DNA of 64,000 nucleotides, taken from Candidatus Halobonum tyrrellensis G22. GTDB lineage: Archaea > Halobacteriota > Halobacteria > Halobacteriales > Haloferacaceae. The stretch spans positions 62,001 through 126,000 of the forward strand of contig NZ_ASGZ01000064.1 of assembly GCF_000495475.1 (NCBI RefSeq). The letters are read 5' to 3'. How positions within the stretch are numbered: the stretch's first letter is position 1; the number at the start of each line of letters is the position of its first letter. The position numbers and the translations under genes are program-made. The notes under the pieces are model-generated. The model saw nothing but the letters and a program-made list of their open reading frames with translations. It did not search any database and was not told where the DNA came from. Below, piece after piece: positions 55-20,420 of the stretch.

Positions 55-1344
55 TCAGCGCCCGTAGTCGACCGACCGCGCCTCCCCGTCGCGGTACACC
101 TCCGTCTCCGCCGGCCGGGTCCGCGCCACCGCCTCGCCGCGGTGGAGCACGAGCGTCCGCGGCGCGCGCGTCCGCAGGGCGTCGAACGGCGTCGGCGCGT
201 CGTAGACGACGAGCGACCCCTCCGCGCCCTCGGTGAGCCCGTAGTCGTCGTCGTCCACCCCGAACACCGCCGCGTTGGCGTCGGTCAGCATCTCCCACAG
301 CGTCGGCACGTCGCCGTGGCCGCTCATGTGCGCGTAGTGGAGCAGGATGAACGCCGCGTCGAGTTGGTCGGCGACGCCGTAGTGGTACCACGGGTCGAGC
401 ACCGAGTCGTGGCCGACGCCGACGGTCACCCCCGCCTCGCGGAGTTCGTCGACGCGGGTGTGTCCGCGCCGGCGCGGGTAGTCGTCGTACCGCCCCTGGA
501 GGACGATGTTGTCCGGCGGGTTGGTGACGACGGAGACGCCGGCCTCCGCGAGCAGCGAGCACACCTTCCGCGCGTACGCGTTGGGGTACGAGTGCATCGC
601 GGTGGCGTGGCTCGCGGTGACGCGGTCGCCGATCCCCCGCTTGAGAGCCTCGCTCGCGAGCGTCTCGGTGAACCGCGACCCGGGGTCGTCGGTCTCGTCG
701 ATGTGCAGGTCGACCGGCAGGCCGTGGCGTTCGGCGGCGTCCATCGCCACCTCGACGGCGGCGACGCCGTCCTCTCGGGTGTGTTCGTTGTGCGGGATGC
801 CCCCGACCACGTCGACGCCCATCCCGACCGCCTCGCGGAACAGGTCCTCGTGGCTCTCGTCGGTGAGGAGGCCGTCCTGGGGGAACGCGACCACTTGGAG
901 GTCGACTACGTCGGCCACCTCCTCGCGGAGTTCACACAGCGCCTCCACCCCGGTCAGGCTGGTCTCGGTCGTGTCGGCGTGCGTCCTGACGCGCGTGACG
1001 CCGTGGCTCACCAGCCACTGTATCGTCCGCGTCGCGCGCTCCTTCACCCCCTCCTTCGTCAGCGACTCCTTGCGGTCGGCCCAGATATCGATCCCCTCCG
1101 CGAGCGTCCCCGACTCGTTCCAGCGGGGGTCGCCCGCGGTCCCCGTCGCGTCGAGGTGGATGTGCGGTTCGGTGAGGCTCGGCGTCACCAGTCGACCCCC
1201 GGCGTCGTACCGGCGGTCGGCGGCGACGGCCGCCGGGTCGCTCTCCCCCGCGTCGCGGACCGCCTCGACCCGCCCCTCGGCTACCTCCACGTCCACGCGC
1301 CGGCCGTCGAGCGTGCGGGCGTCCCGCAGCAAGTACTCTCCCAT
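55..1344 (-). CDS. codA: cytosine deaminase (amidohydrolase superfamily)
   Basis: A 429-residue metal-dependent amidohydrolase that should convert cytosine to uracil and ammonia in the cytoplasm. Metal and catalytic residues appear at the positions known for Escherichia coli CodA: H61 and H63 in PHIHLD, H214 and E217 in DLHIDETDD, H246 in TASHATAMH and D313 in GHDSVLDPWY. The length is normal for the family. The ATG at 1344 directly precedes MGEYLLRDARTLDG, a typical amidohydrolase N-terminus. It is divergent from the cytosine permease gene, which supports cytosine as substrate over other amidohydrolase substrates. Substrate is inferred; the family is clear. Confidence 0.9.
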   Translation of the reverse strand: MGEYLLRDARTLDGRRVDVEVAEGRVEAVRDAGESDPAAVAADRRYDAGGRLVTPSLTEPHIHLDATGTAGDPRWNESGTLAEGIDIWADRKESLTKEGVKERATRTIQWLVSHGVTRVRTHADTTETSLTGVEALCELREEVADVVDLQVVAFPQDGLLTDESHEDLFREAVGMGVDVVGGIPHNEHTREDGVAAVEVAMDAAERHGLPVDLHIDETDDPGSRFTETLASEALKRGIGDRVTASHATAMHSYPNAYARKVCSLLAEAGVSVVTNPPDNIVLQGRYDDYPRRRGHTRVDELREAGVTVGVGHDSVLDPWYHYGVADQLDAAFILLHYAHMSGHGDVPTLWEMLTDANAAVFGVDDDDYGLTEGAEGSLVVYDAPTPFDALRTRAPRTLVLHRGEAVARTRPAETEVYRDGEARSVDYGR

Positions 1345-1404
1345 GCAGGCAGAGTCGCGGCCCGGGTGAAAACCCTGCCGTCCGCCGGCCGAGTTGACGC
1401 TTCC

Positions 1405-1414
1405 GATATTCTTA
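1405..1414 (+). promoter_or_regulatory. probable TATA box of codB
   Basis: The AT-rich stretch gatattctta stands out in the short divergent spacer between codA and codB. A start site about 25 nt downstream would give a short leader before the ATG at 1451. Confidence 0.4.
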
Positions 1415-1450
1415 TGCTCCGAGCTGCGGGCATCCGCACGTCACCAGAGA

Positions 1451-2836
1451 ATGTCGTCACAAACGTCCTCGGAACGGTTGAAACGGTTCGTGTTCGGGCG
1501 TTCGGAACTCGACGACCCCGACTGGCCGGTCGACCACGTCCCCGAGAGCGAGCGGCGGGGGCTGTGGAGCATCTCGGCGGTGCTGTTGGGGTTCGTCTTC
1601 TTCGCCGGCACCATCTACGCCGGCGCGGAGGTTGGCACCGCCGTCGGGTTCGGGCGGATGCTCGGCGCGATGGGGGTTGGGTACGCCATCCTCGGTGCGT
1701 ACGTGGCGACCCTCTGTGCGATCGGCGCGAAGGCCGGACTGACGACGGTACTGCTCTCGCGGTACACGTTCGGCCGCCTCGGCGCGAAGTGGGCGGACCT
1801 CCTCCTCGGCGGGACGCAGGTGGGCTGGTTCGCGGCGACCATCCCGATGGTCGCCGAACCGACGGCGCGCTTCTTCGGTGTCGACACGCCGACGTGGGTG
1901 GCCGCGCTGATCCTCGCGTGGGGCGTGCTCCACCTCGCGACGGCGTACGTCGGCTACGATGGGATGGAACTGCTCTCGAAGGTGGCGGTTCCCGCGCTCG
2001 TCGTCACCGGTCTGCTCTCGATGGGTATCGCCCTCGGCGACGTCGGCGGGTTCGACGGCCTGTTCGGCGGCGGGACCAACGAGATGGCGTTCGGCGCGGC
2101 CGTGACCGTCGTCGTCGGCACGTTCATCAGCGGCGGGACGCAGGCGCCCAACTGGGCGCGGTTCGCACGGAACGGCCGAGTCGGCTTCTGGGCCGGCCTG
2201 GTCGCCTTCCTCCTCGGGAACGGCTTCCTCTTCTTCAGCGGCGCGGTCGGCGGCGCGGCGTACGACGTGACGCCCGCGGGCGACCTCTACGCGGTGCTCG
2301 CGGCGCAGGGACTCGCGGCGCTCGGGCTGGTCGCGCTGATACTCAACATCTGGACCACGAACGACAACACCGCCTACGCGTTCGGCGTCGCCGGCAGCGA
2401 GGCGTTCGACTACGGCCGCAAGCGCCCGTTCGTGCTCGCGGGCGGCGCCGTCGGTATCCTCCTCGCGCTCACCGGCGTCGCCGACGCGCTCGTGCCGTAC
2501 CTCAACCTGCTGGGCCAGTACGTCCCCCCGCTCGGCGGGGTGATCATCGCCGACTTCCTGCTCTGCTGGCGGCTGGAGATCCCGCGGATGGAGGACGTCG
2601 AGTTCGCCCCGCTGCGCGTCTCCGCGCTCGCGGGCTACGTCGTCGGCTGTGCGGTCGCCGCGCTCACCGCCGGGTCGCTCGTCCCCGGCGTCGCGCTCCC
2701 CGAACTCTTCCCCGGGGTCGCGTCGCTCAACGGGCTGGTCGCGTCGGTGGTCGTCCACACCGTCCTCTACTACGGGCTGGAACGCCGCGGGCTGCTCGGC
2801 GGTCACGACGTCGCCGACGACGCCGACTACTGCTGA
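1451..2836 (+). CDS. codB: cytosine permease, NCS1 family
   Basis: A 461-residue polytopic membrane protein of the nucleobase:cation symporter-1 family, expected to import cytosine. About twelve hydrophobic segments alternate with short loops from residue 35 to the C-terminus. Family-like stretches include VGWFAATIPM and the polar loop GTFISGGTQAPNWARFAR. The ATG at 1451 (MSSQTSS) is preferred to an upstream in-frame ATG at 1394, because the upstream 19 residues are not family-like and a TATA-like element lies between the two. It is divergent from codA, making a cytosine uptake and deamination pair. A hydroxymethylpyrimidine or purine NCS1 carrier is possible but less likely in this setting. 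Confidence 0.88.
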   Translation: MSSQTSSERLKRFVFGRSELDDPDWPVDHVPESERRGLWSISAVLLGFVFFAGTIYAGAEVGTAVGFGRMLGAMGVGYAILGAYVATLCAIGAKAGLTTVLLSRYTFGRLGAKWADLLLGGTQVGWFAATIPMVAEPTARFFGVDTPTWVAALILAWGVLHLATAYVGYDGMELLSKVAVPALVVTGLLSMGIALGDVGGFDGLFGGGTNEMAFGAAVTVVVGTFISGGTQAPNWARFARNGRVGFWAGLVAFLLGNGFLFFSGAVGGAAYDVTPAGDLYAVLAAQGLAALGLVALILNIWTTNDNTAYAFGVAGSEAFDYGRKRPFVLAGGAVGILLALTGVADALVPYLNLLGQYVPPLGGVIIADFLLCWRLEIPRMEDVEFAPLRVSALAGYVVGCAVAALTAGSLVPGVALPELFPGVASLNGLVASVVVHTVLYYGLERRGLLGGHDVADDADYC

Positions 2837-9150: not shown

Positions 9151-10212
9151 TCAGGATTCGATCCCCGCCTCCGCGTAGCGCTTCCCGTCGACGAACTCCG
9201 GGATCACGTCCCGGCCGTAGCGCTCGACGTGGCGGGCCTCGTCGCCGGACATCAGGTAGACGTTGAACTGGTCGACCCCCTCCGCTTCGAGCGCGCGCAG
9301 TTTCTCGACGTGGTCGTCCGCGGTACCGACGACGCCGAACCGGTCGATGATCGACGGGGGGACCCACTCCAGGTGGTCGGCGTCCGCCTCGGCGTGTTCG
9401 GTGTAGTCGTACCCCTCGTCGGCGCCCTCGCCCTCCCGGCCCTCGATGTAGTCCGTGAGTTCGTCGGGGAGGTGGTCGCCCTCGTGGTGTTTGTCGACCA
9501 GGTCCGCGACGTGGTTGCCCACCATCGCGGGGAACCACCGCAGGTTCCGCCGCGCCTCGTCGACGTCGTCGCCCAGCCAGACGGGCGCACACGACATCAC
9601 GGTGACCTCGTCGGGGTCGCGACCGTGTTTCTCCGCGCCCGCGCGCACCTGGTCGACGAACCAGCCCACGAGGTACGGGTCGGATATCTGGAGGACGACC
9701 CCGTCGGCCACCTTCCCCGCGATTTCGAGCATCTTCGGCCCGTAGGCGGCGACCCACGTGACCAACTCGGCGTCGGTCCACGTCAACTGCACCTCGTCGC
9801 CCGTCTCGGGGTGGTCGACCGGCTCCCCCCGGTGGAGGTGGCGGATGGCGTCCACCTCGGCTTCGAACTCGTGCCACGGCACCGGCCGCTTGCCGAGCAT
9901 GCGGAGCGAACTGTCGCCGCGACCGATCGCCATCTCGGCGCGCCCGTCCGACTGCTGGTTGAGCGTCGCGTACGAACTCGCGGTCACGGAGACGTCTCGC
10001 ACCTTGGGGTTGGTGACGAGCGTCCCCGTCTTCAGCGTCTCCGTCCGCTCTAACAGCTGCGCCATCTGGGGGTACGGGTCCTTCCAGAGGACGTGCGAGT
10101 CGTAGAACCACCCGTAGTCGAAGCCGGCGTCCTCCGCGAGCGTGCCGAGTGCGGCCGTCCGCTCGGGGGACATGTCTCCCTTGAACGTGATACCGAACTG
10201 CGTCAGCGCCAT
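9151..10212 (-). CDS. LLM-class (F420/flavin-dependent) oxidoreductase, copy 1
   Basis: A 353-residue luciferase-like monooxygenase-fold protein, a TIM-barrel family using F420 or FMN. Family features are the N-terminal FGITFKGDMSPERTA strand, the TGTLVTNPKVRD region, the glycine-rich RAEMAIGRGDSS and the late TADDHVEKLRALEAEGVDQF. It resembles the TIGR03842-type subgroup, from memory only. The ATG at 10212 starts MALTQFG, with a TATA-like ggattaatgc 30 nt upstream, giving a leaderless transcript. It is divergent from an NCS2 nucleobase permease. The substrate is unknown; context suggests a pyrimidine or ring-reduction role. Confidence 0.82.
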   Translation of the reverse strand: MALTQFGITFKGDMSPERTAALGTLAEDAGFDYGWFYDSHVLWKDPYPQMAQLLERTETLKTGTLVTNPKVRDVSVTASSYATLNQQSDGRAEMAIGRGDSSLRMLGKRPVPWHEFEAEVDAIRHLHRGEPVDHPETGDEVQLTWTDAELVTWVAAYGPKMLEIAGKVADGVVLQISDPYLVGWFVDQVRAGAEKHGRDPDEVTVMSCAPVWLGDDVDEARRNLRWFPAMVGNHVADLVDKHHEGDHLPDELTDYIEGREGEGADEGYDYTEHAEADADHLEWVPPSIIDRFGVVGTADDHVEKLRALEAEGVDQFNVYLMSGDEARHVERYGRDVIPEFVDGKRYAEAGIES

Positions 10213-10237
10213 TCGACTGTACGAGCGCACGGTGAAC

Positions 10238-10247
10238 GCATTAATCC
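10238..10247 (-). promoter_or_regulatory. TATA box, LLM oxidoreductase copy 1
   Basis: On the minus strand this reads ggattaatgc, centred 30 nt before the ATG at 10212, the spacing expected for leaderless haloarchaeal transcription. Confidence 0.5.
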
Positions 10248-10348
10248 TGTGGGTGCTGTCGAATACTGCTCGACGGGACCGACCGATCGACCGGAAGAGG
10301 TGGGACGAACCCGGCAGTCGGGTGGAAAACGCTCGCGCGTTCCCCTAA

Positions 10349-10357
10349 CTATAAATA
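10349..10357 (+). promoter_or_regulatory. probable TATA box, NCS2 permease
   Basis: The element ctataaata is the best TATA match upstream of the permease. It implies a leader of about 65 nt that ends in a ribosome-binding site (ggagg) just before the GTG at 10446. Confidence 0.4.
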
Positions 10358-10445
10358 CTCGTTCCCGTATCGATGACGTGCGATATGATCACACCCCAAC
10401 GGTACGGCCGTCTCACCCCGGCTCGCGACGGCACGGAGGAGGCCC

Positions 10446-11984
10446 GTGGCTGACACCGACACCCCCGGAGCGGTCGAGGAGGGGAGCATGGTGACGTACG
10501 GTCTCGACGACAAGCCGCCGCTCGGCGAGTCGGTCCTGCTCGGCGTCCAACACTGGCTGACGATGGTCGGCTCCACCATCGCGATCCCGCTCGTGCTCAC
10601 GGGCGCGCTGGGGTTCGACGCGGCCCAGACCGCCCAACTCGTCGGCACGTTCTTCGTCGTCTCGGGGGTCGCCACCGTCGCGCAGGCGACGGTCGGCAAC
10701 CGCTACCCGATCGTCCAGGGGGGGACGTTCTCGATGCTCGGTCCCGCCCTCGCCATCATCAGCGTGCTCGCGGCGAGTAACGCCTCCCCGACGGTGATGA
10801 TGCGTCAACTCCAGGGCGCGATCATCGTCGCGGGTCTCGCCGAGGTGGTGATCGGCTACCTCGGCGTCTTCGGTCGGCTCAAGAAGTACATGGGACCGAT
10901 CGTCATCGCGGTGGTGATCGGCCTCATCGGGCTGGCGCTGATCAGCGTCGGCCAGATCACGTCCGCGACGCAGAACTGGTATCTCGCCGGGCTGACGCTC
11001 GCGCTCATCGTCCTGTTCTCGCAGTACCTCAACACCCACTCGCGGTGGCTGAAGCTGTTCCCGGTGCTGCTCGGTCTGGGGGCGGCGTACCTGATCGCCG
11101 TGCTGCTGTCGGTCGCAGGCGTGGCAAACATCGTTGACCTGAGTCCGGTCGCGTCCGCCCCGCTGATCCGGCCGATCGTCCCGTTCCAGTGGGGGATGCC
11201 GCTGTTCACCGGGTCGTTCATCGTGGGCATGATCGCGGGGATGCTCGCGTCGGCGATCGAGAGCTTCGGCGACTACCACTCCGTCGCCCGGATGGCCGGC
11301 GAGGGCGCGCCCAACGAGCGCCGGATCAACCACGGACTCGGCATGGAGGGGCTGGGTAACGTCTTCGCGGGGATCATGGGGACCGGCAACGGCTCCACCT
11401 CCTACACCGAGAACGTCGGCGCGATCGGTATCACGGGCGTCGCCTCCCGCTACGTGGTCCAGGTCGGCGGGGTCGTGATGGTGGTCGTCGGCTACGTCGG
11501 CTACTTCGGCGCGTTCGTCACCACCATCCCCAACCCGATCATCGGGGGGCTGTTCCTCGCCATGTTCGCCCAGATCGTCGGCGTCGGCCTCTCACAGCTC
11601 CAGCACGTCGACATGAACCAGAACCGCAACGTGTTCGTCGTCGGGTTCGGGCTGTTCGCCGGGCTCTCGATCCCCCAGTACGTCGCCAACGTCCAGGCCG
11701 CCGCCGACGTGAGCTTCCAGGCGGGGCTCGCGTCCGTCCCGGTGGTCGGGGCGGTACTCGGGATCCCCGAGGTGGCGAACGCGGTCCGGATCGTCCTCGG
11801 CACCGAGATAGCGGTCGGCGGCATCTCGGCGTTCGTCCTCGACAACACGATCCCCGGCACGCGCGAGGAGCGCGGCCTGACCGCGTGGGAGGAGATCACC
11901 GAGGACGACGACGCGTTCGTCCCGTTCCACGAGGAGTTCCTCTCCGACGGCCCGTCACGCGAGCGGCAGGTGGGGGACGACTGA
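10446..11984 (+). CDS. NCS2 nucleobase permease (uracil/xanthine type)
   Basis: A 512-residue polytopic membrane protein of the nucleobase:cation symporter-2 family. The NAT signature ENVGAIGITG is present, as is the conserved early segment QGGTFSMLGPA and about fourteen hydrophobic stretches. The GTG at 10446 follows cggaggaggccc, a strong ribosome-binding site. It lies beside an LLM oxidoreductase and upstream of hydantoinase-pathway genes, which favours uracil or another pyrimidine as substrate. Xanthine or uric acid transport is the main alternative. Confidence 0.9.
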   Translation: MADTDTPGAVEEGSMVTYGLDDKPPLGESVLLGVQHWLTMVGSTIAIPLVLTGALGFDAAQTAQLVGTFFVVSGVATVAQATVGNRYPIVQGGTFSMLGPALAIISVLAASNASPTVMMRQLQGAIIVAGLAEVVIGYLGVFGRLKKYMGPIVIAVVIGLIGLALISVGQITSATQNWYLAGLTLALIVLFSQYLNTHSRWLKLFPVLLGLGAAYLIAVLLSVAGVANIVDLSPVASAPLIRPIVPFQWGMPLFTGSFIVGMIAGMLASAIESFGDYHSVARMAGEGAPNERRINHGLGMEGLGNVFAGIMGTGNGSTSYTENVGAIGITGVASRYVVQVGGVVMVVVGYVGYFGAFVTTIPNPIIGGLFLAMFAQIVGVGLSQLQHVDMNQNRNVFVVGFGLFAGLSIPQYVANVQAAADVSFQAGLASVPVVGAVLGIPEVANAVRIVLGTEIAVGGISAFVLDNTIPGTREERGLTAWEEITEDDDAFVPFHEEFLSDGPSRERQVGDD

Positions 11985-11986
11985 CC

Positions 11987-12535
11987 GTGTCTCACCCCAA
12001 CGCACACGCCTCGGCGCGCGCCGCCGAGGACCGCGACGACGCTCCGGGGTCCGACCCCGCTCGCGGCTCCGCCCCGCGCGGCGACGAGGCTCACGGTGGC
12101 GGGACGGCCGAGTCGACCGACCGCGACCCGGCCGGGGCGGCCGATGGCGAGGTGGCGGTGCGACGGATGCCGCTCCGGGAGGGCGGCTGGGTCGGCTACG
12201 GCGACGACGCCGTCTACGTCGTCCGCGACGACGAGCCAGTCGAGGTCCGGACCGACGACGTGGTCCGCGTGTCGCTCCGGACCGTCGAGTGGGACCTGGC
12301 GGTGATGAGCCTGCTGCTCGTCGGCGTCGGCGGCTACGTCGCGGCGACGCGGAACCCGCTCGTCGGGGCGGCGTTCGCGCTCGTCGGGGTCGCCAGCCTC
12401 TATCGCACGTACGGCCACCGCCACCAGCTCCGCATCCACGTCGAGGGCGGGGCGAAACCCCTGACGCTCCACCCCGAACACCCCGCGGAGTGTCACGACA
12501 CCCTCGCCGACCTGGCCGGTCTCCGGTCGGCCTGA
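11987..12535 (+). CDS. hypothetical membrane protein
   Basis: An unrecognised protein of 182 residues. The N-terminal 55 or so residues are disordered and charged (Ala, Asp, Arg, Gly). A small soluble stretch follows (MPLREGGWVGYGDDAVYVV), then two hydrophobic segments (LAVMSLLLVGVGGYVAA and LVGAAFALVGVASLYRTY) and a short soluble tail. The GTG at 11987 lies 2 nt after the permease stop, so the two are probably co-transcribed. It may be an accessory to the permease, but nothing in the sequence proves that. Confidence 0.6.
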   Translation: MSHPNAHASARAAEDRDDAPGSDPARGSAPRGDEAHGGGTAESTDRDPAGAADGEVAVRRMPLREGGWVGYGDDAVYVVRDDEPVEVRTDDVVRVSLRTVEWDLAVMSLLLVGVGGYVAATRNPLVGAAFALVGVASLYRTYGHRHQLRIHVEGGAKPLTLHPEHPAECHDTLADLAGLRSA

Positions 12536-12824
12536 GCGGCTACGGCCCGCGACCGGCTCCCCCCGTCGCCTCGGCCGTCGTCGGTCTCCCGACCGCGCCC
12601 GACCGCCGGCGTCGTCCGCCCGGCCGCTCTCCTCCCCGCCACCCCCGGCGACCGCGAGACGCGCGCGCGATCCGGTGGACAATTTTGATCGAGAGAGCGA
12701 GCGAAGTTTACAACGTTCTCTACCTCGACCGATCCGTACGTAGATATTCGACCGACGCCCGTATCGATCGGACGAATGAAGATATATCCGCTACCGAGCG
12801 GACGGGAGTCCAGATACGACTCCG

Positions 12825-12844
12825 TTACAGCGGTATTACTGTAA
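12825..12844. promoter_or_regulatory. palindromic site TTACA-N10-TGTAA (copy A)
   Basis: TTACA at 12825-12829 and TGTAA at 12840-12844 are separated by 10 nt whose positions 4-6 are GTA. The right arm continues into TTCC. It lies 188 nt upstream of the N-carbamoyl amidohydrolase gene. Two more copies with the same layout occur at 44496 and 62270. Confidence 0.5.
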
Positions 12845-13000
12845 TTCCTGGGCCGGACGGGCGGGCGGCAGGCGACGTGTGGACGCAACCTGGTATCCGG
12901 CGAGTAACTTCTACGTTCGTCCGGTCGGGCCGCTCGCGTCGGTCGGCGGCGCGGTCCGAACCCCGCCGGCGGTCCGGTTGGCGGCCGACGTCGGGGGAAT

Positions 13001-13008
13001 GTTTATGT
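13001..13008 (+). promoter_or_regulatory. TATA box, N-carbamoyl amidohydrolase
   Basis: The element gtttatgt is centred 28 nt before the ATG at 13033, matching a leaderless promoter. Confidence 0.5.
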
Positions 13009-13032
13009 GACCGTCACCGTTCTCTCGAACGC

Positions 13033-14265
13033 ATGTCTATCGAGGCAGACAGAGAGCGCTTCGTCGCCACGATGAGAGAGCAGGCGGAGATCGGCGGCAC
13101 CGAGGACGGCGGTCTCCACCGGCTCACGCTCTCCGAGGAGGACGAACGGGTCCGCGACTGGTTCGCCGAACAGGCGGAGGCGGCGGGACTCGACGTGACC
13201 GTCGACGAGTTCGGCAACATGTTCGCCTACCGCGAGGGGACCGACCCCGACGCCGGCACCGTCCTCGTCGGGTCCCACCTCGACTCCCAGCCGTACGGCG
13301 GCATCTACGACGGCGCGATGGGCGTCGTCGCGGCGCTCGAACTCGTCCGGACGCTCGACGACGAGGGGATCGAGACCACCCACCCGATCGAGATCGTCAA
13401 CTGGACCAACGAGGAGGGGTCGCGGTTCCAGCCCGCGATGCAGGGGTCGGGCGTCTGGGCGGGCGAACACGACGTCGACGAGGAGTACGCCAAGACCGAC
13501 CCCGACGGCGCGACGTTCGAGGAGGAACTCGAACGGATCGGCTACAAGGGGGAGGTGGCGGCGGAACCCCAACGGGAGTACGACTCCTACCTCGAACTCC
13601 ACATCGAACAGGGACCGTACCTGGAGGAGAGCGACGCGGACGTGGGCGTCGTCACGGGCATCGTCGGGTTCACGTGGGGGGCGATCACGTTCCACGGCGA
13701 GGCCGACCACTCGGGACCGACGCCGATGCAGTACCGGAGCGACGCCCTCGTCGCCGCCGCGGACGTGATCACCCAGATCCGGCGCATCCCGAGCGCGCTC
13801 GGCGAGCGCACGGTGGGGACGACGGGGTACATCGACGCCGAGCCCAACTCGATCAACATCATCCCCGAGGAGGTGACGTTCACGTGGGGCTTTCGCGACC
13901 CGACCGAGGAGGTGATAGCGGAGGCGCGCGCCCGGGTGCTCGCGGAGGCCGAGTACGCCGCCGACCGCGAGGGGGTCGACTGGGAGTACGAGGACCGCAT
14001 GTGGGCCGACCCGGTGAACTTCGCCGACCGGTGTGTCGACGCCGTCGCGGACGCGACCGACGACCTGGGGTACGACAGCATGCGCATCTTCAGCGGCGCG
14101 GGCCACGACGCCCAGCACATGCACAAGCTGATGGACACCGCGATGGTGTTCTCCGTCTCCGAGGGGGGCAAGAGCCACAGCGAAGACGAGTACACCAGCT
14201 GGGACGACTGCTACACGGCGGCGAACACGCTCGTGAACGCGGCAGTCGACCTCGCGACGGAGTGA
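13033..14265 (+). CDS. Zn-dependent N-carbamoyl-beta-alanine/amino-acid amidohydrolase (M20 family)
   Basis: A 410-residue binuclear-zinc amidohydrolase of the allantoate/N-carbamoyl amino acid group within peptidase M20. Metal ligands are visible as H82 (GSHLDS), D93 (IYDGAMG), E127/E128 (WTNEEGS), H190 (ELHIEQGP) and a late His in GAGHDAQHM. The expected reaction is N-carbamoyl-beta-alanine to beta-alanine, CO2 and ammonia. The ATG at 13033 fits a TATA box 28 nt upstream. The next gene, an LLM oxidoreductase, starts 3 nt after the stop, so they form an operon. Together with the dihydropyrimidinase this points to beta-ureidopropionase, though allantoate or hydantoin products remain possible. 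Confidence 0.87.
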   Translation: MSIEADRERFVATMREQAEIGGTEDGGLHRLTLSEEDERVRDWFAEQAEAAGLDVTVDEFGNMFAYREGTDPDAGTVLVGSHLDSQPYGGIYDGAMGVVAALELVRTLDDEGIETTHPIEIVNWTNEEGSRFQPAMQGSGVWAGEHDVDEEYAKTDPDGATFEEELERIGYKGEVAAEPQREYDSYLELHIEQGPYLEESDADVGVVTGIVGFTWGAITFHGEADHSGPTPMQYRSDALVAAADVITQIRRIPSALGERTVGTTGYIDAEPNSINIIPEEVTFTWGFRDPTEEVIAEARARVLAEAEYAADREGVDWEYEDRMWADPVNFADRCVDAVADATDDLGYDSMRIFSGAGHDAQHMHKLMDTAMVFSVSEGGKSHSEDEYTSWDDCYTAANTLVNAAVDLATE

Positions 14266-14268
14266 GCC

Positions 14269-15318
14269 ATGGGGGCGAACTTCGACCGCGAGTTCACGCG
14301 CGCGGGCATCTGGAACTGGGAGAAACCCCGGATCGAAGACGAGATCCGGTACGCGCAGTACGCCGAGGAGGCGGGACTCGACTCGGTGTGGCAGGGTGAG
14401 TCGCGGCTGGTCCGCGACGCGATGACCGTCATGGGGGCGTACACGCAGGCGACCGACGAGATAGACATCGCGCCCGGCGTCACCAACTGCTACACGCGCA
14501 ACGTCGCGCTGATGGCACAGACGTTCTCGACGCTGCACGAACTGTCGGGCGGGCGGACCAAACTCGGGATCGGCGCGTGGTGGGACCCGCTCGCCTCGAA
14601 GGTGGGGGTCGAACGCGAGCGTCCGCTCCGGCGGATGTGGGAGTACTGCACCGTCGTCAAGCGCCTGCTCGACCTGGAGACCGTGACGTACGACGGCGAC
14701 ACGCTCGGCGTCGACGGCATCGAACTCGACTTGGTGCGCTCGGAGGCCGGGCCGCGGGACGTCCCCATCTACGTCGGCGCGACGGGTGAGACGATGCACA
14801 AACTGACGGGCGAACTCGTCGGGACGGGCGTCGCGGGCGGCGTCTTCATGAACTACCTCATCCCCCCCGAACACAACCTGAAGGGGGTGGAGAAGCTCCG
14901 GGAGGGCGTCGAGAAGCAGGGCGGCGAACTGGCCGACGTCGACCGCCCCCAGTTGATCGCGGTGTCGATGGACGAGGACGCCGACAGGGCGATAGACGAG
15001 GCGCGCGGACTCGCCACCCAGTACATCGGCCAGCAGCCCCACATCACGAAGGCGTCGGGCATCGACGAGGAACGGGCCGCGCTCGTAAAGGAGGAACTCG
15101 GCGGCTGGCCCGCCACCGCCGCCGACATCGAACGCGCCTCCGAACACGTGAGCGACGACGTGGTGACCAACATCGTCGCCGCGGGCACCCCCGACGACGT
15201 GATCGACCGCGTCCGCGACTACTGCGAGGCTGGCTGTACCGAGCCGGTGGTCTACCCGCTGACCGACAACATGGAGGAAGTCATCGACGCGATGGCGGAG
15301 GCCAAAGCCGAGGGGTGA
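14269..15318 (+). CDS. LLM-class (F420/flavin-dependent) oxidoreductase, copy 2
   Basis: A 349-residue luciferase-like TIM-barrel oxidoreductase. Features include an N-terminal DEIRYAQYAEEAGLDSVW stretch, TDEIDIAPGVTNCYTRNVA, the glycine motif KLGIGAWWDP, and a late TPDDVIDRVRDYCEAG helix. It is a different subfamily from the copy at 9151. It starts 3 nt after the N-carbamoyl amidohydrolase and so is almost certainly translated from the same message. That coupling makes it the best candidate in the window for a redox step in pyrimidine breakdown. Cofactor (F420 versus FMN) and substrate are inferred. Confidence 0.82.
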   Translation: MGANFDREFTRAGIWNWEKPRIEDEIRYAQYAEEAGLDSVWQGESRLVRDAMTVMGAYTQATDEIDIAPGVTNCYTRNVALMAQTFSTLHELSGGRTKLGIGAWWDPLASKVGVERERPLRRMWEYCTVVKRLLDLETVTYDGDTLGVDGIELDLVRSEAGPRDVPIYVGATGETMHKLTGELVGTGVAGGVFMNYLIPPEHNLKGVEKLREGVEKQGGELADVDRPQLIAVSMDEDADRAIDEARGLATQYIGQQPHITKASGIDEERAALVKEELGGWPATAADIERASEHVSDDVVTNIVAAGTPDDVIDRVRDYCEAGCTEPVVYPLTDNMEEVIDAMAEAKAEG

Positions 15319-15465
15319 CGGCCCCGTCGGGCCGACGCCGCCGACTCGCCCGTGACGCCTCGGACGACCAGCCCCGCCCGGGTAGCCTGCCGACCCGGTA
15401 GCCCGGCGCTCGGCGGCCGTGTCCGCCGGGTAACCTTTTTCATCCACCCCGCGAGTCACTGGTGT

Positions 15466-16845
15466 ATGCCGGCCGACACAGTCATCAGCGGCGGTACGGT
15501 CGTGACCGCGACGGACACGTTCGAGGCGGACGTGGCGATAGACGGCGGCGAGATAGCCGCCGTCGGCGCGCCCGACTCGATGCCCGACGCCGACGAGACG
15601 GTCGACGCCTCGGGTCTGTTAGTCATGCCCGGGGTCATCGACCCGCACGTCCACGTCGACGACATGTTCTCCATCGACACCCACGAGACGGCGTCGGCGG
15701 CGGCGGCGCTCGGGGGCGTCACCTCCTACGTCGACTTCGCGTGGCAGGCGTGGGAGGGCGACCTCTCCATCTTCGACGAGGCGGGGACGCTACTGGAGGG
15801 GATCGAGCGGAAACGCGAGAAGGCGGCGGACGCACACGTCGACTACGCGTTCCACGCCGCCATCACCCGCGAGGACCCCGCGGTGCTCGACGAACTCGCC
15901 GACGCCGTCGAGGCGGGCGTCTCGTCGTTCAAGATGTTCACCGCCTACGAACACGGGCTCTCGAACGGGTTCATGCACCGCGTGATGGAGGAACTCGCCG
16001 ACCTGGACGCGGTCGGGGTCTACCACACCGAGGACTCGACCATCACCGACATGCTGACCGAACGCTTCCAGGCGGAGGGGAAGGGGGACCCGACGTACTA
16101 CCCCAAGTCGCGGCCGGACTACGCGGAGGCGATGGCCGCCGAGGACGCCGTCCGGATGGCGGCCGAGACGGGCGCGAAGTACTACGGTATCCACACCACC
16201 TCGCGGAAGGCGGCGGAAGTGATCGACGACTTCCGCGACGACGGCTCGCAGGTCCGCGCGGAGACGTGCACCCACTACACCACGCTCACGGACGACGTCT
16301 TCGAGGAGATGGGCAACCTCCCGATGATCGCGCCGCCGATCCGCAAGCGGGACGACGTGGAGGCGATGTTCGAGTACCTCTCGGACGGGACGCTCGACGT
16401 CGTCTCGACCGACCACTGCGGCTACGAGCGCGAGTCGAAGGAAGTCGAGAACTGGTGGGACTCCACGTTCGGCGCGAACGCGCTCCAGACCTCGCTGCCG
16501 GTGTTTCACGACGAGGCGGTCAACGAACGCGGGTTCTCCTACCCGTTCGTCGTCCGCGTGATGAGCCGGAACCCCGCGCGGGTGTTCGGGATGGCGGGGA
16601 AGGGGACGCTCGACCCCGGCACCGACGCCGACGTGGTGCTGTTCGACCCCGACGAGACGTACACGGTCACGGCCGACGACAACGCGTCGAACGCCGACTT
16701 CTCCATCTACGAGGGGCGGGAGGTCACCGGGAGAGTGGCGAAGACGTTCGTCCGGGGCGAACTCGTCGCCGACGACGGCGAGGTGGTCGGCGACGCGGGC
16801 CGCGGCGAGTTCGTCGAACGCGACCTGCCCGACTGGAGCGTCTGA
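15466..16845 (+). CDS. dihydropyrimidinase / hydantoinase
   Basis: A 459-residue cyclic amidase of the amidohydrolase superfamily that should open dihydrouracil (or a hydantoin) to the N-carbamoyl amino acid. Binuclear metal ligands are H61 and H63 in DPHVHVDD, the likely carboxylated lysine K156 in SSFKMFTAY, a His in YYGIHTTSRK and Asp in VSTDHCGYE. The length matches dihydropyrimidinases. The ATG at 15466 lies about 28 nt after a T-rich element (aaccttttt), consistent with its own leaderless promoter. It sits just downstream of the N-carbamoyl amidohydrolase and converges with the semialdehyde dehydrogenase, the full set needed for the reductive pathway. Confidence 0.88.
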   Translation: MPADTVISGGTVVTATDTFEADVAIDGGEIAAVGAPDSMPDADETVDASGLLVMPGVIDPHVHVDDMFSIDTHETASAAAALGGVTSYVDFAWQAWEGDLSIFDEAGTLLEGIERKREKAADAHVDYAFHAAITREDPAVLDELADAVEAGVSSFKMFTAYEHGLSNGFMHRVMEELADLDAVGVYHTEDSTITDMLTERFQAEGKGDPTYYPKSRPDYAEAMAAEDAVRMAAETGAKYYGIHTTSRKAAEVIDDFRDDGSQVRAETCTHYTTLTDDVFEEMGNLPMIAPPIRKRDDVEAMFEYLSDGTLDVVSTDHCGYERESKEVENWWDSTFGANALQTSLPVFHDEAVNERGFSYPFVVRVMSRNPARVFGMAGKGTLDPGTDADVVLFDPDETYTVTADDNASNADFSIYEGREVTGRVAKTFVRGELVADDGEVVGDAGRGEFVERDLPDWSV

Positions 16846-16848
16846 GCT

Positions 16849-18315
16849 TCAGGCGTCGGGCCAGCGCTCGATGTACACCGCGGCGTCGGTGTAAAAGTGG
16901 ATCATGTCCTCACCTTGTGCGTGGAGGTCGCCGAAGAAGGAGTCCTTCCACCCGCCGAAGTGGAAGAACGCCATCGGCGCGGCCGTCCCGGCGTTGACCG
17001 CGAGGTTGCCCGCCTCCACCTCGTGGCGGAACCGTCGGGCGTCGGCGCCGCGGTCGGTGAACAGGCTGGCGGCGTTGCCGAACTCGCTGCGGTTCACGAT
17101 GGAGACGGCGTCGTCGAAGTCGTCCGCGCGCACCAACGCGAGCACCGGGCCGAATATCTCGTCACACGCCACCGTCGCGTCGGGGTCGACGTCGCCGAAC
17201 ACCGTCGGGCCGAGGAAGCTACCCTCCTCGGGTACGTCGGCGTCGCGGCCGTCGTACAGCAGCGTGGCGCCCTCGTCGATGCCCATCTCGACGTACCCCT
17301 CGACCGTCTCGCGGTGGTCGTCGGAGACGAGCGGTCCCATCTCGACGCCGTCGGCCATCCCCTCGCCGACGGTCATGTCGGCGACGATGTCGACGAGGCG
17401 GTCGACGAACTCGTCGTAGACGGCGTCGTCGACCACCGCGACCGGGTTGGCGAGACACCGCTGGCCGGTGTTGGCGAACGCGGAGCCGACGGTCTGTTCG
17501 GCCGCGAACTCGAGGTCCGCCGACTCGGCGACGACGACGTGGTTCTTCGCGCCGCCCTGCGCTTGCACCCGCTTGCCGTTCGCGGCCGCCGTCTCGTAGA
17601 CGTGCTTCGCGACGGGGGTGCTGCCGACGAACGAGACGCCCTCGATGCCGTCGTGACCGAGGATGGCGTTCACCGTGTCGACGCTCCCGTTGACGAGTTG
17701 GACCACGCCGTCGGGGAACCCCGCCTCCGCGGCGAGTTCGACGATGCGCTGGGCGGTGACGGGCGTCTTCTCGCTGGGCTTGAGCAGGAACGCGTTGCCG
17801 GTCGCCACCGCGTACGGCATGAACCACAGCGGGATCATCCCGGGGAAGTTGAACGGGGTGACCGCCGCGAACACGCCGAGCGGCTTCCGCACCGCGGTCT
17901 CGTCGATGTCGGGGGCGGCGTTCGGCAGGTGACCCCCCTGCATCATCGAGGGGATGCCGCAGGCCACCTCGACGTTCTCGATGCCGCGGCGCAACTCGCC
18001 TTTCGCCTCGTCGAACGTCTTGCCGTGTTCGCGGACCAGCGTCTCCGCGAGGTCGTCTTGGTGGTGTTCGAGCAGCGACTTGAGTTCGAACAGCGGCTGG
18101 ATACGCTCCTCGACGGGCGTCTCGCGCCACTCCTCGAACGCCGCCTGCCCGGCGGCGACGGCGTCGTCCACGTCGTCGTCGGTGCTGAATCCGACGTGGG
18201 TGACCGCCTCGCCCGACGCCGAGTCGACCACGTCCCGTCCGTCGTCGCCCGACGGGGCGCGCCACTCGCCGTCGACGTAGTTCCGCACGTCCTCCCAGGG
18301 AGTACTCTCTGTCAT
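16849..18315 (-). CDS. mmsA: CoA-acylating (methyl)malonate-semialdehyde dehydrogenase
   Basis: A 488-residue aldehyde dehydrogenase. Catalytic Cys287 lies in TGQRCLANP and Asn156 in TPFNFPGM. The motif GGAKNH occurs where most aldehyde dehydrogenases have a general-base Glu, a hallmark of the CoA-dependent methylmalonate-semialdehyde type. It should turn malonate semialdehyde plus CoA and NAD into acetyl-CoA and CO2 (or the methyl homologue into propionyl-CoA). It ends 3 nt from the dihydropyrimidinase stop and is divergent from the class III aminotransferase that would supply its substrate. A TATA-like acttattg about 31 nt upstream supports the ATG at 18315. Confidence 0.9.
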   Translation of the reverse strand: MTESTPWEDVRNYVDGEWRAPSGDDGRDVVDSASGEAVTHVGFSTDDDVDDAVAAGQAAFEEWRETPVEERIQPLFELKSLLEHHQDDLAETLVREHGKTFDEAKGELRRGIENVEVACGIPSMMQGGHLPNAAPDIDETAVRKPLGVFAAVTPFNFPGMIPLWFMPYAVATGNAFLLKPSEKTPVTAQRIVELAAEAGFPDGVVQLVNGSVDTVNAILGHDGIEGVSFVGSTPVAKHVYETAAANGKRVQAQGGAKNHVVVAESADLEFAAEQTVGSAFANTGQRCLANPVAVVDDAVYDEFVDRLVDIVADMTVGEGMADGVEMGPLVSDDHRETVEGYVEMGIDEGATLLYDGRDADVPEEGSFLGPTVFGDVDPDATVACDEIFGPVLALVRADDFDDAVSIVNRSEFGNAASLFTDRGADARRFRHEVEAGNLAVNAGTAAPMAFFHFGGWKDSFFGDLHAQGEDMIHFYTDAAVYIERWPDA

Positions 18316-18487
18316 CTGCTAGGTGGGCGTTCCCGCCCCGCTCAATAAGTCTTTTCGACGATTTCCGAACGAGTCGGGAGAGACCGGACGCTGTCCACGG
18401 GATCGGCCGGTTCGAGCGACAGCGTCGTGTGAACCGCGTCGGAGGGCAAAGATTAATCAGCGGCACGCGACCACGTACCACGCACGG

Positions 18488-19828
18488 ATGGCCGACTCCG
18501 ACTCCCCCGACGCGCCGGGACCGAACCGGACCGAACAGACCGACAGGGAGCACGTCTTCGGGACGTGGTCGTACCAGAAGGACGTCGCGCCGACGGAGGT
18601 GGTCGACGCCGACGGGGTGCGTTTCACCACCGCCGACGGCGACGAGTACCTCGACTTCTCCAGTCAGTTGATGTGTTCGAACCTCGGCCACTCCGCCGAC
18701 AGGGTCGCCGACGCCGTGGCCGACCAGATGCGGGAGGCGGCGTACGTCGCGCCGTCGTACACGACCGAGGCGCGCGCGCGCCTCGGGGAGATGCTCGCGG
18801 AGGTGACGCCGGGCGACCTCACGAAGACGTTCTTCTCGACCAGCGGGACCGAGGCCATCGAGGCGGCGATCAAGATCGCGCGCTTCTACACGGGCAAACG
18901 GAAGATCGTCTCGCGCTACCGGTCGTACCACGGCGCCACCTACGGGTCGATCAGCGTCACCGGCGACCCCCGGCGGCTCCCCGCCGAACCCGGCATCCCG
19001 GGAGTGATCAAGGCGCCCGACCCGTACGCGTACGGGTCGACGCTCGACCCGATGGAGAGCGTCGAGTACATCGACGAGATGCTCGAACTCGAAGGCGACA
19101 CGGTCGCCGCGGTGTTGGTCGAACCGATCGTCGGGTCGAACGGCATCCTCGTCCCGCCCGCCGAGTACCTCCCGCGGCTGAAGGAGGTCGCTCACGACCA
19201 CGGCGCGCTGCTGATCTGCGACGAGGTGATGTCGGGGTTCGGCCGGACGGGCGAGTGGTTCGGCTGTGACGTCTTCGGCGTCGAACCGGACATCGTGACG
19301 ATGGCGAAGGGGCTGACCGGCGCCTACCAACCGCTCGGCGCCACCATCGTCTCGCCGTCGATCGCCGACCACTTCGAGGAGAACATGTTCTGTCACGGCC
19401 ACACCTACTCGGGCCACCCGGCGGCGGTCGCCGCGGGCGTCGCGGCCATCGAGACGTACCGCGAGGAGAACCTGATCGAACGGGCGCGCGAGACGGGCGA
19501 GTACCTCGGCGAGCGGATCGACGATCTGGCGGCCGACCACCCGAGCGTCGGCGACACCCGGGGCGTGGGGCTGTTCCGCGGGATCGAACTGTCGAAGCGG
19601 GCCGACGAGCGGGTGCCGTTCGGGACGCGCGAGGACAAGGTGAGTTCGGGGTCGACCGTCGTCGACGAGGTGGCCGCGGCCGCCGCCGACCACGGCACCT
19701 ACGTGGCGAACATGATCAACACCCTGATCGTCGCCCCGCCGCTGACGATCACGGACGACGAGGTGGACGAGGCGATGGACGCGCTCGACGCCGGACTCGA
19801 CGTGTCCGACGAGGCGATGGAGGGGTAG
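18488..19828 (+). CDS. class III aminotransferase (beta-alanine/omega-amino acid type)
   Basis: A 446-residue PLP aminotransferase of class III. The cofactor lysine is K274 in TMAKGLTGAY. The PLP-binding Asp lies in LLICDEVMSGFGRTG, and the early STSGTEAIEAAIK helix binds phosphate. In this neighbourhood the likely reaction is beta-alanine (or 3-aminoisobutyrate) to malonate semialdehyde. It is divergent from the semialdehyde dehydrogenase, and an Lrp regulator follows 70 nt downstream. The ATG at 18488 follows a TATA-like agattaatc. GABA aminotransferase or another omega-aminotransferase is the alternative. Confidence 0.87.
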   Translation: MADSDSPDAPGPNRTEQTDREHVFGTWSYQKDVAPTEVVDADGVRFTTADGDEYLDFSSQLMCSNLGHSADRVADAVADQMREAAYVAPSYTTEARARLGEMLAEVTPGDLTKTFFSTSGTEAIEAAIKIARFYTGKRKIVSRYRSYHGATYGSISVTGDPRRLPAEPGIPGVIKAPDPYAYGSTLDPMESVEYIDEMLELEGDTVAAVLVEPIVGSNGILVPPAEYLPRLKEVAHDHGALLICDEVMSGFGRTGEWFGCDVFGVEPDIVTMAKGLTGAYQPLGATIVSPSIADHFEENMFCHGHTYSGHPAAVAAGVAAIETYREENLIERARETGEYLGERIDDLAADHPSVGDTRGVGLFRGIELSKRADERVPFGTREDKVSSGSTVVDEVAAAAADHGTYVANMINTLIVAPPLTITDDEVDEAMDALDAGLDVSDEAMEG

Positions 19829-19867
19829 CGTCGGGACCGCCGACTCGCCCGGCCGCCCGCGACGGGG

Positions 19868-19875
19868 AGTATAAG
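19868..19875 (+). promoter_or_regulatory. TATA box, Lrp regulator
   Basis: The element agtataag is centred 27 nt before the GTG at 19899. It overlaps an upstream in-frame GTG (19875), which it rules out as the start if the transcript is leaderless. Confidence 0.5.
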
Positions 19876-19898
19876 TGCGAGCGGGACCACCCCGAACC

Positions 19899-20420
19899 GT
19901 GTCCCGCCCCGTGGCGTCCGACGTGGAGTTCGACGAGACCGACCTCGCGCTGCTCGAACAGGTCGAGGGGGACTTCGACGTGAGCCTCGAAACCCTCTCC
20001 GACCGGCTCGAACTCTCGAAGTCCGCGGTCCACTACCGGCTGAACAAGTTGAAAGACAGCGGCGTCATCACCGGCGTCACCGCCGACCTCGACCCGCTCG
20101 CGTTCGGGCTCGACATGGTCGCGCTCACCGAGGTAACCGTCGACCACACCGAGGGGTACTCCGAGACGGTCGGCGAGCGACTCGACGCGGTCGAGGGGGT
20201 CGAACGCGTCTACTACACGATGGGTGACGTCGACTTCGTCGCCGTCGTCCGGGTGCAGAACCGCGACCAGATGAACGACGTCATCGACGACATCGTCGCC
20301 ATCGACGCGGTCGACCAGACCTCCTCCCGGTTCGTCCTCGACGAAATCGGGGGCGACGCCGGCGTCGTCGGCAACGTCCGCGACGAGGCGACCGACGCGC
20401 TCCTCGACCGGGAGGGGTAG
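19899..20420 (+). CDS. Lrp/AsnC family transcriptional regulator
   Basis: A 173-residue regulator with an N-terminal helix-turn-helix (DETDLALLEQ through LSKSAVHYRLNKLKDSG) and a C-terminal RAM ligand-binding domain (residues about 70-150). The GTG at 19899 is preferred over one at 19875, because a TATA box sits exactly at 19868-19875. It lies downstream of the aminotransferase on the same strand. Lrp proteins often sense amino acids, so control of the beta-alanine steps is a reasonable inference. Confidence 0.87.
   Translation: MSRPVASDVEFDETDLALLEQVEGDFDVSLETLSDRLELSKSAVHYRLNKLKDSGVITGVTADLDPLAFGLDMVALTEVTVDHTEGYSETVGERLDAVEGVERVYYTMGDVDFVAVVRVQNRDQMNDVIDDIVAIDAVDQTSSRFVLDEIGGDAGVVGNVRDEATDALLDREG

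Follow-up and report, generated by a model that had tools for sequence, protein, structure and literature searches.

Gene content of the locus and the first enzyme

We analysed a 64,000-nucleotide stretch of Candidatus Halobonum tyrrellensis G22 (contig NZ_ASGZ01000064.1, positions 62,001 to 126,000; hereafter the window), part of a 3.68 Mb haloarchaeal assembly that is 99.6% complete, and focused on its cluster of reductive pyrimidine degradation genes (Table 1). The downstream set is complete and comprises dihydropyrimidinase (assigned at family level), ureidopropionase, aminotransferase and semialdehyde dehydrogenase. Three nucleotides separate the stop of the ureidopropionase, an M20-family amidase, at 14265 from the start at 14269 of a luciferase-like monooxygenase (LLM) family protein, here called LLM1, which we propose as the F420H2-dependent uracil/thymine reductase of the pathway, with a probability of roughly 0.7. 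A preliminary description of this DNA had listed these genes, including a second LLM protein (LLM2) and codA/codB; all are present at or near the positions it gave, the families match and the 3-nt spacing is correct.

N-carbamoyl-beta-alanine amidohydrolase 8c46 and beta-alanine synthases, including 1r3n, are among the PDB relatives of the amidase. The dihydropyrimidinase does not reach the cut-off of its best model, so that its name holds at family level, and its top PDB relatives are hydantoinases and dihydropyrimidinases. The nearest PDB chain of the class III aminotransferase is taurine:2-oxoglutarate aminotransferase 6jix. LLM1 scores below every curated family cut-off and is likewise named at family level. 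The position of the Lrp gene is conserved in the clusters of Natronorubrum, Halarchaeum and Saliphagus. Six-frame open reading frames antisense to the cluster were dropped on codon-position G+C, and two that were scanned also lacked Pfam matches.

Table 1. Features of the window and aldehyde:ferredoxin oxidoreductase (AOR) homologues at other loci
Feature	Position	Strand	Support
codA, cytosine deaminase	55-1344	-	NF005748, 463 bits (cut-off 438)
codB, cytosine permease	1394-2836	+	NF008241, 374 bits (cut-off 326)
LLM2, LLM-class F420-dependent oxidoreductase	9151-10230	-	TIGR03842, 407.8 bits (cut-off 295)
NCS2 nucleobase permease	10446-11984	+	PF00860
Small predicted membrane protein, 3' of the NCS2 permease	11987-12535	+	absent from the gene list of the preliminary description
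M20 hydantoinase/carbamoylase-family amidase, N-carbamoyl-beta-alanine amidohydrolase (beta-ureidopropionase)	13021-14265	+	TIGR01879, 409 bits (cut-off 204)
LLM1, candidate F420H2-dependent uracil/thymine reductase	14269-15318	+	PF00296
Dihydropyrimidinase/hydantoinase	15466-16845	+	best model TIGR02033, 341 bits (cut-off 393)
CoA-acylating (methyl)malonate-semialdehyde dehydrogenase (MMSDH)	16849-18315	-	TIGR01722, 520 bits (cut-off 448)
Class III omega-aminotransferase (beta-alanine / beta-aminoisobutyrate)	18488-19828	+	PF00202
Lrp/AsnC-family regulator	19875-20420	+	PF01037/PF13412
AOR homologue in LLM1-lacking pyrimidine-type cluster	L148:15054-16904
AOR homologue in LLM1-lacking pyrimidine-type cluster	L146:6962-8809
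AOR homologue in LLM1-lacking pyrimidine-type cluster	L147:11834-13684
AOR homologue in LLM1-lacking pyrimidine-type cluster	L221:6563-8422

The known Pyd pathway (with PreA/PreT, DPYD or the ferredoxin-dependent PydAc) shares these four downstream enzymes with the window. Its first enzyme is an FMN/Fe-S dihydropyrimidine dehydrogenase, whereas the window encodes an LLM-fold protein with F420H2 as the predicted donor. The preliminary description had seen no PreA/PreT or DPYD here and had advised searching for PreA elsewhere. We confirmed that the window lacks a PreA-type dihydropyrimidine dehydrogenase and found none in the remainder of the genome: the PF01180 matches are a single full-length, PyrD-sized dihydroorotate dehydrogenase and two short partial ones. 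The PreA model NF006183 exceeded its cut-off in none of 195 Halobacteria and in two of 14 control genomes (the output does not state which two; E. coli, a preA carrier, is among the controls matched). With all 195 Halobacteria negative and two controls positive, the classical enzyme seems to be missing from the class as sampled.

LLM1 and its sister clade in purine clusters

In a search with a profile of the LLM1 clade and the purine-cluster clade described below, Mer came first (9e-57), followed by FGD (1e-20), Adf (3e-18) and RutA (9e-6). The AlphaFold model of LLM1 (pLDDT 91.7) superimposes on F420-bound Mer with a TM score of 0.85. LLM1 thus belongs by nearest relatives and fold with the F420-dependent LLM oxidoreductases, and F420 binding itself is predicted. 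Although Mer provides the closest solved structures, with the same fold and F420 dependence, LLM1 is only about 27% identical to it and falls short of the curated Mer cut-offs (159 of 348.7 bits for TIGR03555 and 176 of 276 for NF002619). We rejected Mer as its function on these scores and because a Mer-like gene distinct from LLM1 lies beside cofE in the genome.

In a tree of 79 sequences, LLM1 forms its own haloarchaeal clade (98/98), separate from Mer, LLM2 and RutA and sister to a clade of LLM proteins from purine clusters (96/89; union 92/95). Members of the sister clade sit in reductive purine (urate) clusters of Chloroflexota, Acidimicrobiia and haloarchaea, often inside F420-biosynthesis operons. 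At its 70 loci the neighbourhood includes SsnA (52), an XdhD-type oxidoreductase (43), NpdG and CofC (33 each) and CofE (29); in the loci sampled, the Cof and NpdG calls and one Chloroflexota SsnA exceed the curated cut-offs. In Chloroflexota, npdG, cofE, cofD and cofC precede the LLM gene, with the SsnA and XdhD-type genes close by. Around the LLM gene of Haloterrigena turkmenica lie yqeB, npdG and genes for two molybdopterin dehydrogenases, a Zn-hydrolase, a D-aminoacylase, a threonine-synthase-like PLP enzyme, and hydantoinase-like and SsnA-like amidohydrolases. The latter cluster, on pHTUR01 (L212:1-20538), resembles the bacterial reductive urate cluster and has its own NADPH-dependent F420 reductase gene.

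This context agrees with the proposal that in Chloroflexota a PF00296 F420-dependent luciferase-family yanthine reductase replaces YgfK/UacX (PMC12507026). LLM1 lies beside the putative yanthine reductase clade and not within it. The two have much in common: LLM1 has homologues about 50% identical to it in the F420-linked purine clusters, the motif GAWWDP is present in all 57 sequences of both clades and in none of the Mer, LLM2, RutA or other own-genome LLM sequences tested, and in the proposed roles of both ring reduction precedes hydrolytic opening. They differ in that LLM1 is a separate clade found in pyrimidine-type clusters and reads WNWE at first-strand residues 15-18, where the purine clade has YLQD. 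Glu6 of Mer (mutated in 8qq8) aligns with Trp15 of LLM1 and with the Tyr of the purine clade, and this tetrapeptide may determine substrate choice.

Conserved linkage and expression in Haloferax volcanii

Orthologues of LLM1 (73-87% identical) were found in Halegenticoccus, Haladaptatus, Saliphagus, Salinirussus, Natronomonas, Halobium, Natronorubrum and Halarchaeum, among others. The amidase gene directly precedes LLM1 in 15 of the 20 LLM1 tree members, from several genera; in the other five it lies about 10 kb away (two), elsewhere in the genome (G031) or out of sight on contigs of metagenome-assembled genomes (two). The rest of the pathway set is usually near. In Haladaptatus caseinilyticus, an NCS1 permease, the amidase, LLM1, dihydropyrimidinase, aminotransferase and MMSDH stand in one row. 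Among the 195 genomes, six carry LLM1 and all six belong to the 21 with an amidase gene (hypergeometric p = 8e-7, without correction for relatedness). The closest plasmid-borne amidase (82%), in Natronosalvus rutilus, has as neighbours a different LLM protein, 24% identical to LLM1 (L218:6639-7658), a distant aminotransferase and a nitrilase-type hydrolase.

When Haloferax volcanii grew in uracil-containing medium with L-alanine in place of ammonium, HVO_A0295A, amaB2, dpyS, mmsA and gabT6 rose by log2 4.6 to 5.7; the luciferase-family gene HVO_A0295A, directly 3' of amaB2, rose by 5.6, about 47-fold (PMC6801745). The authors inferred a route from uracil to acetyl-CoA and assigned no enzyme to uracil reduction. 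Like the window, this region (HVO_A0293-A0307) contains amaB2, a luciferase-family gene, dpyS, mmsA, gabT6 and lrp, and most of the region was co-induced; it differs in carrying pot-type ABC transporter genes, and the published model begins at dihydrouracil with no reductase assigned. The gene content is that of the Halarchaeum LLM1 cluster, and the order potA-potA-amidase-LLM recurs in Haladaptatus DYSN1, so HVO_A0295A is probably the LLM1 orthologue. In Halarchaeum a NodB-like polysaccharide deacetylase family gene adjoins LLM1 (L208:8911-9810), and HVO_A0301, annotated alike, was strongly co-induced (PMC6801745); the deacetylase-family protein might be a ring-opening amidase.

Proposed pathway and alternatives

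The suggestion of the preliminary description that an F420H2-dependent LLM protein opens the pathway stands, as a candidate assignment, for LLM1. It has good support in the absence of PreA, the conserved synteny, the sister clade's ties to reductive purine degradation and to the making of F420, the match of its fold to F420-bound Mer, the presence of CofE in the genome and the co-induction of the H. volcanii gene in the same context. Gene identities, the lack of PreA, linkage, clade membership and fold are what the analysis shows; cofactor, substrate, reaction direction and regulation we infer. On this view haloarchaea would degrade pyrimidines reductively, starting with an enzyme not homologous to the usual one. 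Uracil and cytosine would enter through the permeases and CodA/CodB, with CodA yielding uracil from cytosine. LLM1 would transfer hydride from F420H2 to the 5,6 double bond of uracil (or thymine), dihydropyrimidinase would open the ring, and the M20 amidase would free ammonia, CO2 and beta-alanine. The aminotransferase would then give malonate semialdehyde and the CoA-acylating dehydrogenase acetyl-CoA (propionyl-CoA if thymine is the substrate). Nitrogen status or beta-alanine is the probable signal for Lrp.

Several observations weigh against this assignment. Two contigs of metagenome-assembled genomes (L031 and L036) carry LLM1 with no pathway genes nearby, and in G031 it lies on a separate contig from the remaining pathway genes. 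Nine of the 21 amidase genomes have neither LLM1 nor AOR. In the own genome of the window, CofE, which is present, was the sole F420-biosynthesis gene tested, and NpdG was not found in the two stretches examined. The case for HVO_A0295A as an orthologue consists of gene order and content, and yanthine reduction by the sister clade has the standing of a published proposal.

In some LLM1 clusters there is a less similar hydantoinase (about 31%), HyuA/HyuB, an isochorismatase or ABC transporters, and another cyclic ureide may accordingly be the substrate. That LLM1 is an F420-dependent reductase of some other cyclic ureide or imide, with uracil not the main substrate of the cluster, would also suit the SDR protein, NodB-like deacetylase and polyamine-type transporters of some clusters and an amidase family that includes other carbamoyl amino acids. 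We consider this unlikely: in most clusters a beta-alanine-type aminotransferase and MMSDH lie beside LLM1, and the window, Saliphagus and Haladaptatus caseinilyticus have nucleobase permease genes or codA/codB close by.

Somewhat less probable still is that LLM1 performs another step, such as semialdehyde reduction, and a different enzyme reduces uracil. An F420-dependent alcohol dehydrogenase does belong to the LLM family, and some dihydropyrimidinase and amidase clusters have a tungsten-type AOR instead of LLM1, but the MMSDH beside LLM1 already takes the semialdehyde, the place of the sister clade in urate clusters is that of the ring reductase, and the genome lacks PreA.

The chance that LLM2 (9151) is the reductase is slim. 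The preliminary description had named it for assay along with LLM1, and F420 use is supported: in Paracoccus and Leisingera a TIGR03842 gene ends cofG-cofH-cofD-cofC-cofE-npdG runs (L206:9013-10014; L207:8998-9999), so that the family is probably F420-dependent in Rhodobacterales, and in the window its gene diverges from that of the NCS2 permease. A place in the pyrimidine step is not supported, as the Rhodobacterales copies have no pyrimidine genes alongside and LLM2 shares a cluster with LLM1 at only two loci, the window and Saliphagus (L034). Being so rare in LLM1 clusters, it was set aside as main candidate and is an optional member whose role we leave unassigned.

Oxidative uracil opening by a RutA-like flavin monooxygenase hardly comes into question: RutA acts on uracil and belongs to the same fold superfamily, as the preliminary description had noted along with the lack of Rut partners, but it uses FMN and O2 chemistry, its match is weak and its sequence distant (9e-6 against 9e-57 for Mer), no Rut genes were recognised beside LLM1, and a dihydropyrimidinase is present although the Rut route needs none.

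We found no paper in the literature that names an F420-dependent uracil reductase. The haloarchaeal lower pathway and an F420 variant for urate have already been proposed in print; what is new is linking the two and assigning the missing step. Only one F420-dependent reaction has been reported in haloarchaea, where the role of the cofactor has been described as enigmatic (PMC8305020). If LLM1 is the uracil reductase, haloarchaeal F420 has a catabolic role, the gap in the published uracil pathway of H. volcanii is closed, and the F420 variant put forward for urate clusters reaches pyrimidines. A genetic model to which uracil is routinely given is available for testing the idea.

A broader reading, which we hold tentatively and at somewhat less than even odds, is that a single F420H2-dependent LLM family serves generally to reduce nucleobase rings. 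Its purine branch, in Chloroflexota, Actinomycetota and haloarchaea, would open the degradation of yanthine, and its haloarchaeal pyrimidine branch would replace dihydropyrimidine dehydrogenase, with a tungsten AOR homologue as a further solution in haloarchaea that lack this branch. Three genomes without LLM1 (G057, matching Halostagnicola larsenii, G160 and G166) encode the dihydropyrimidinase (69-71%) and the amidase (71-72%), and an AOR homologue adjoins the aminotransferase or dihydropyrimidinase; in Halomarina one lies beside the amidase. By family these homologues are expected to hold tungsten. AOR (E <= 1e-150) and LLM1 occur together in none of the 195 genomes, an exclusion that is weak among the 21 amidase genomes (p = 0.09). 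MMSDH is encoded elsewhere in G057 and G160, and none exceeds the cut-off in G166; the AOR homologue may stand in for LLM1, for the local MMSDH or for the two together. The small membrane protein of the window has copies (35-56% identical) in the Saliphagus cluster and in three of these AOR-type clusters (L146-L148), and the NCS2 permease has an 85% identical copy in the Saliphagus cluster.

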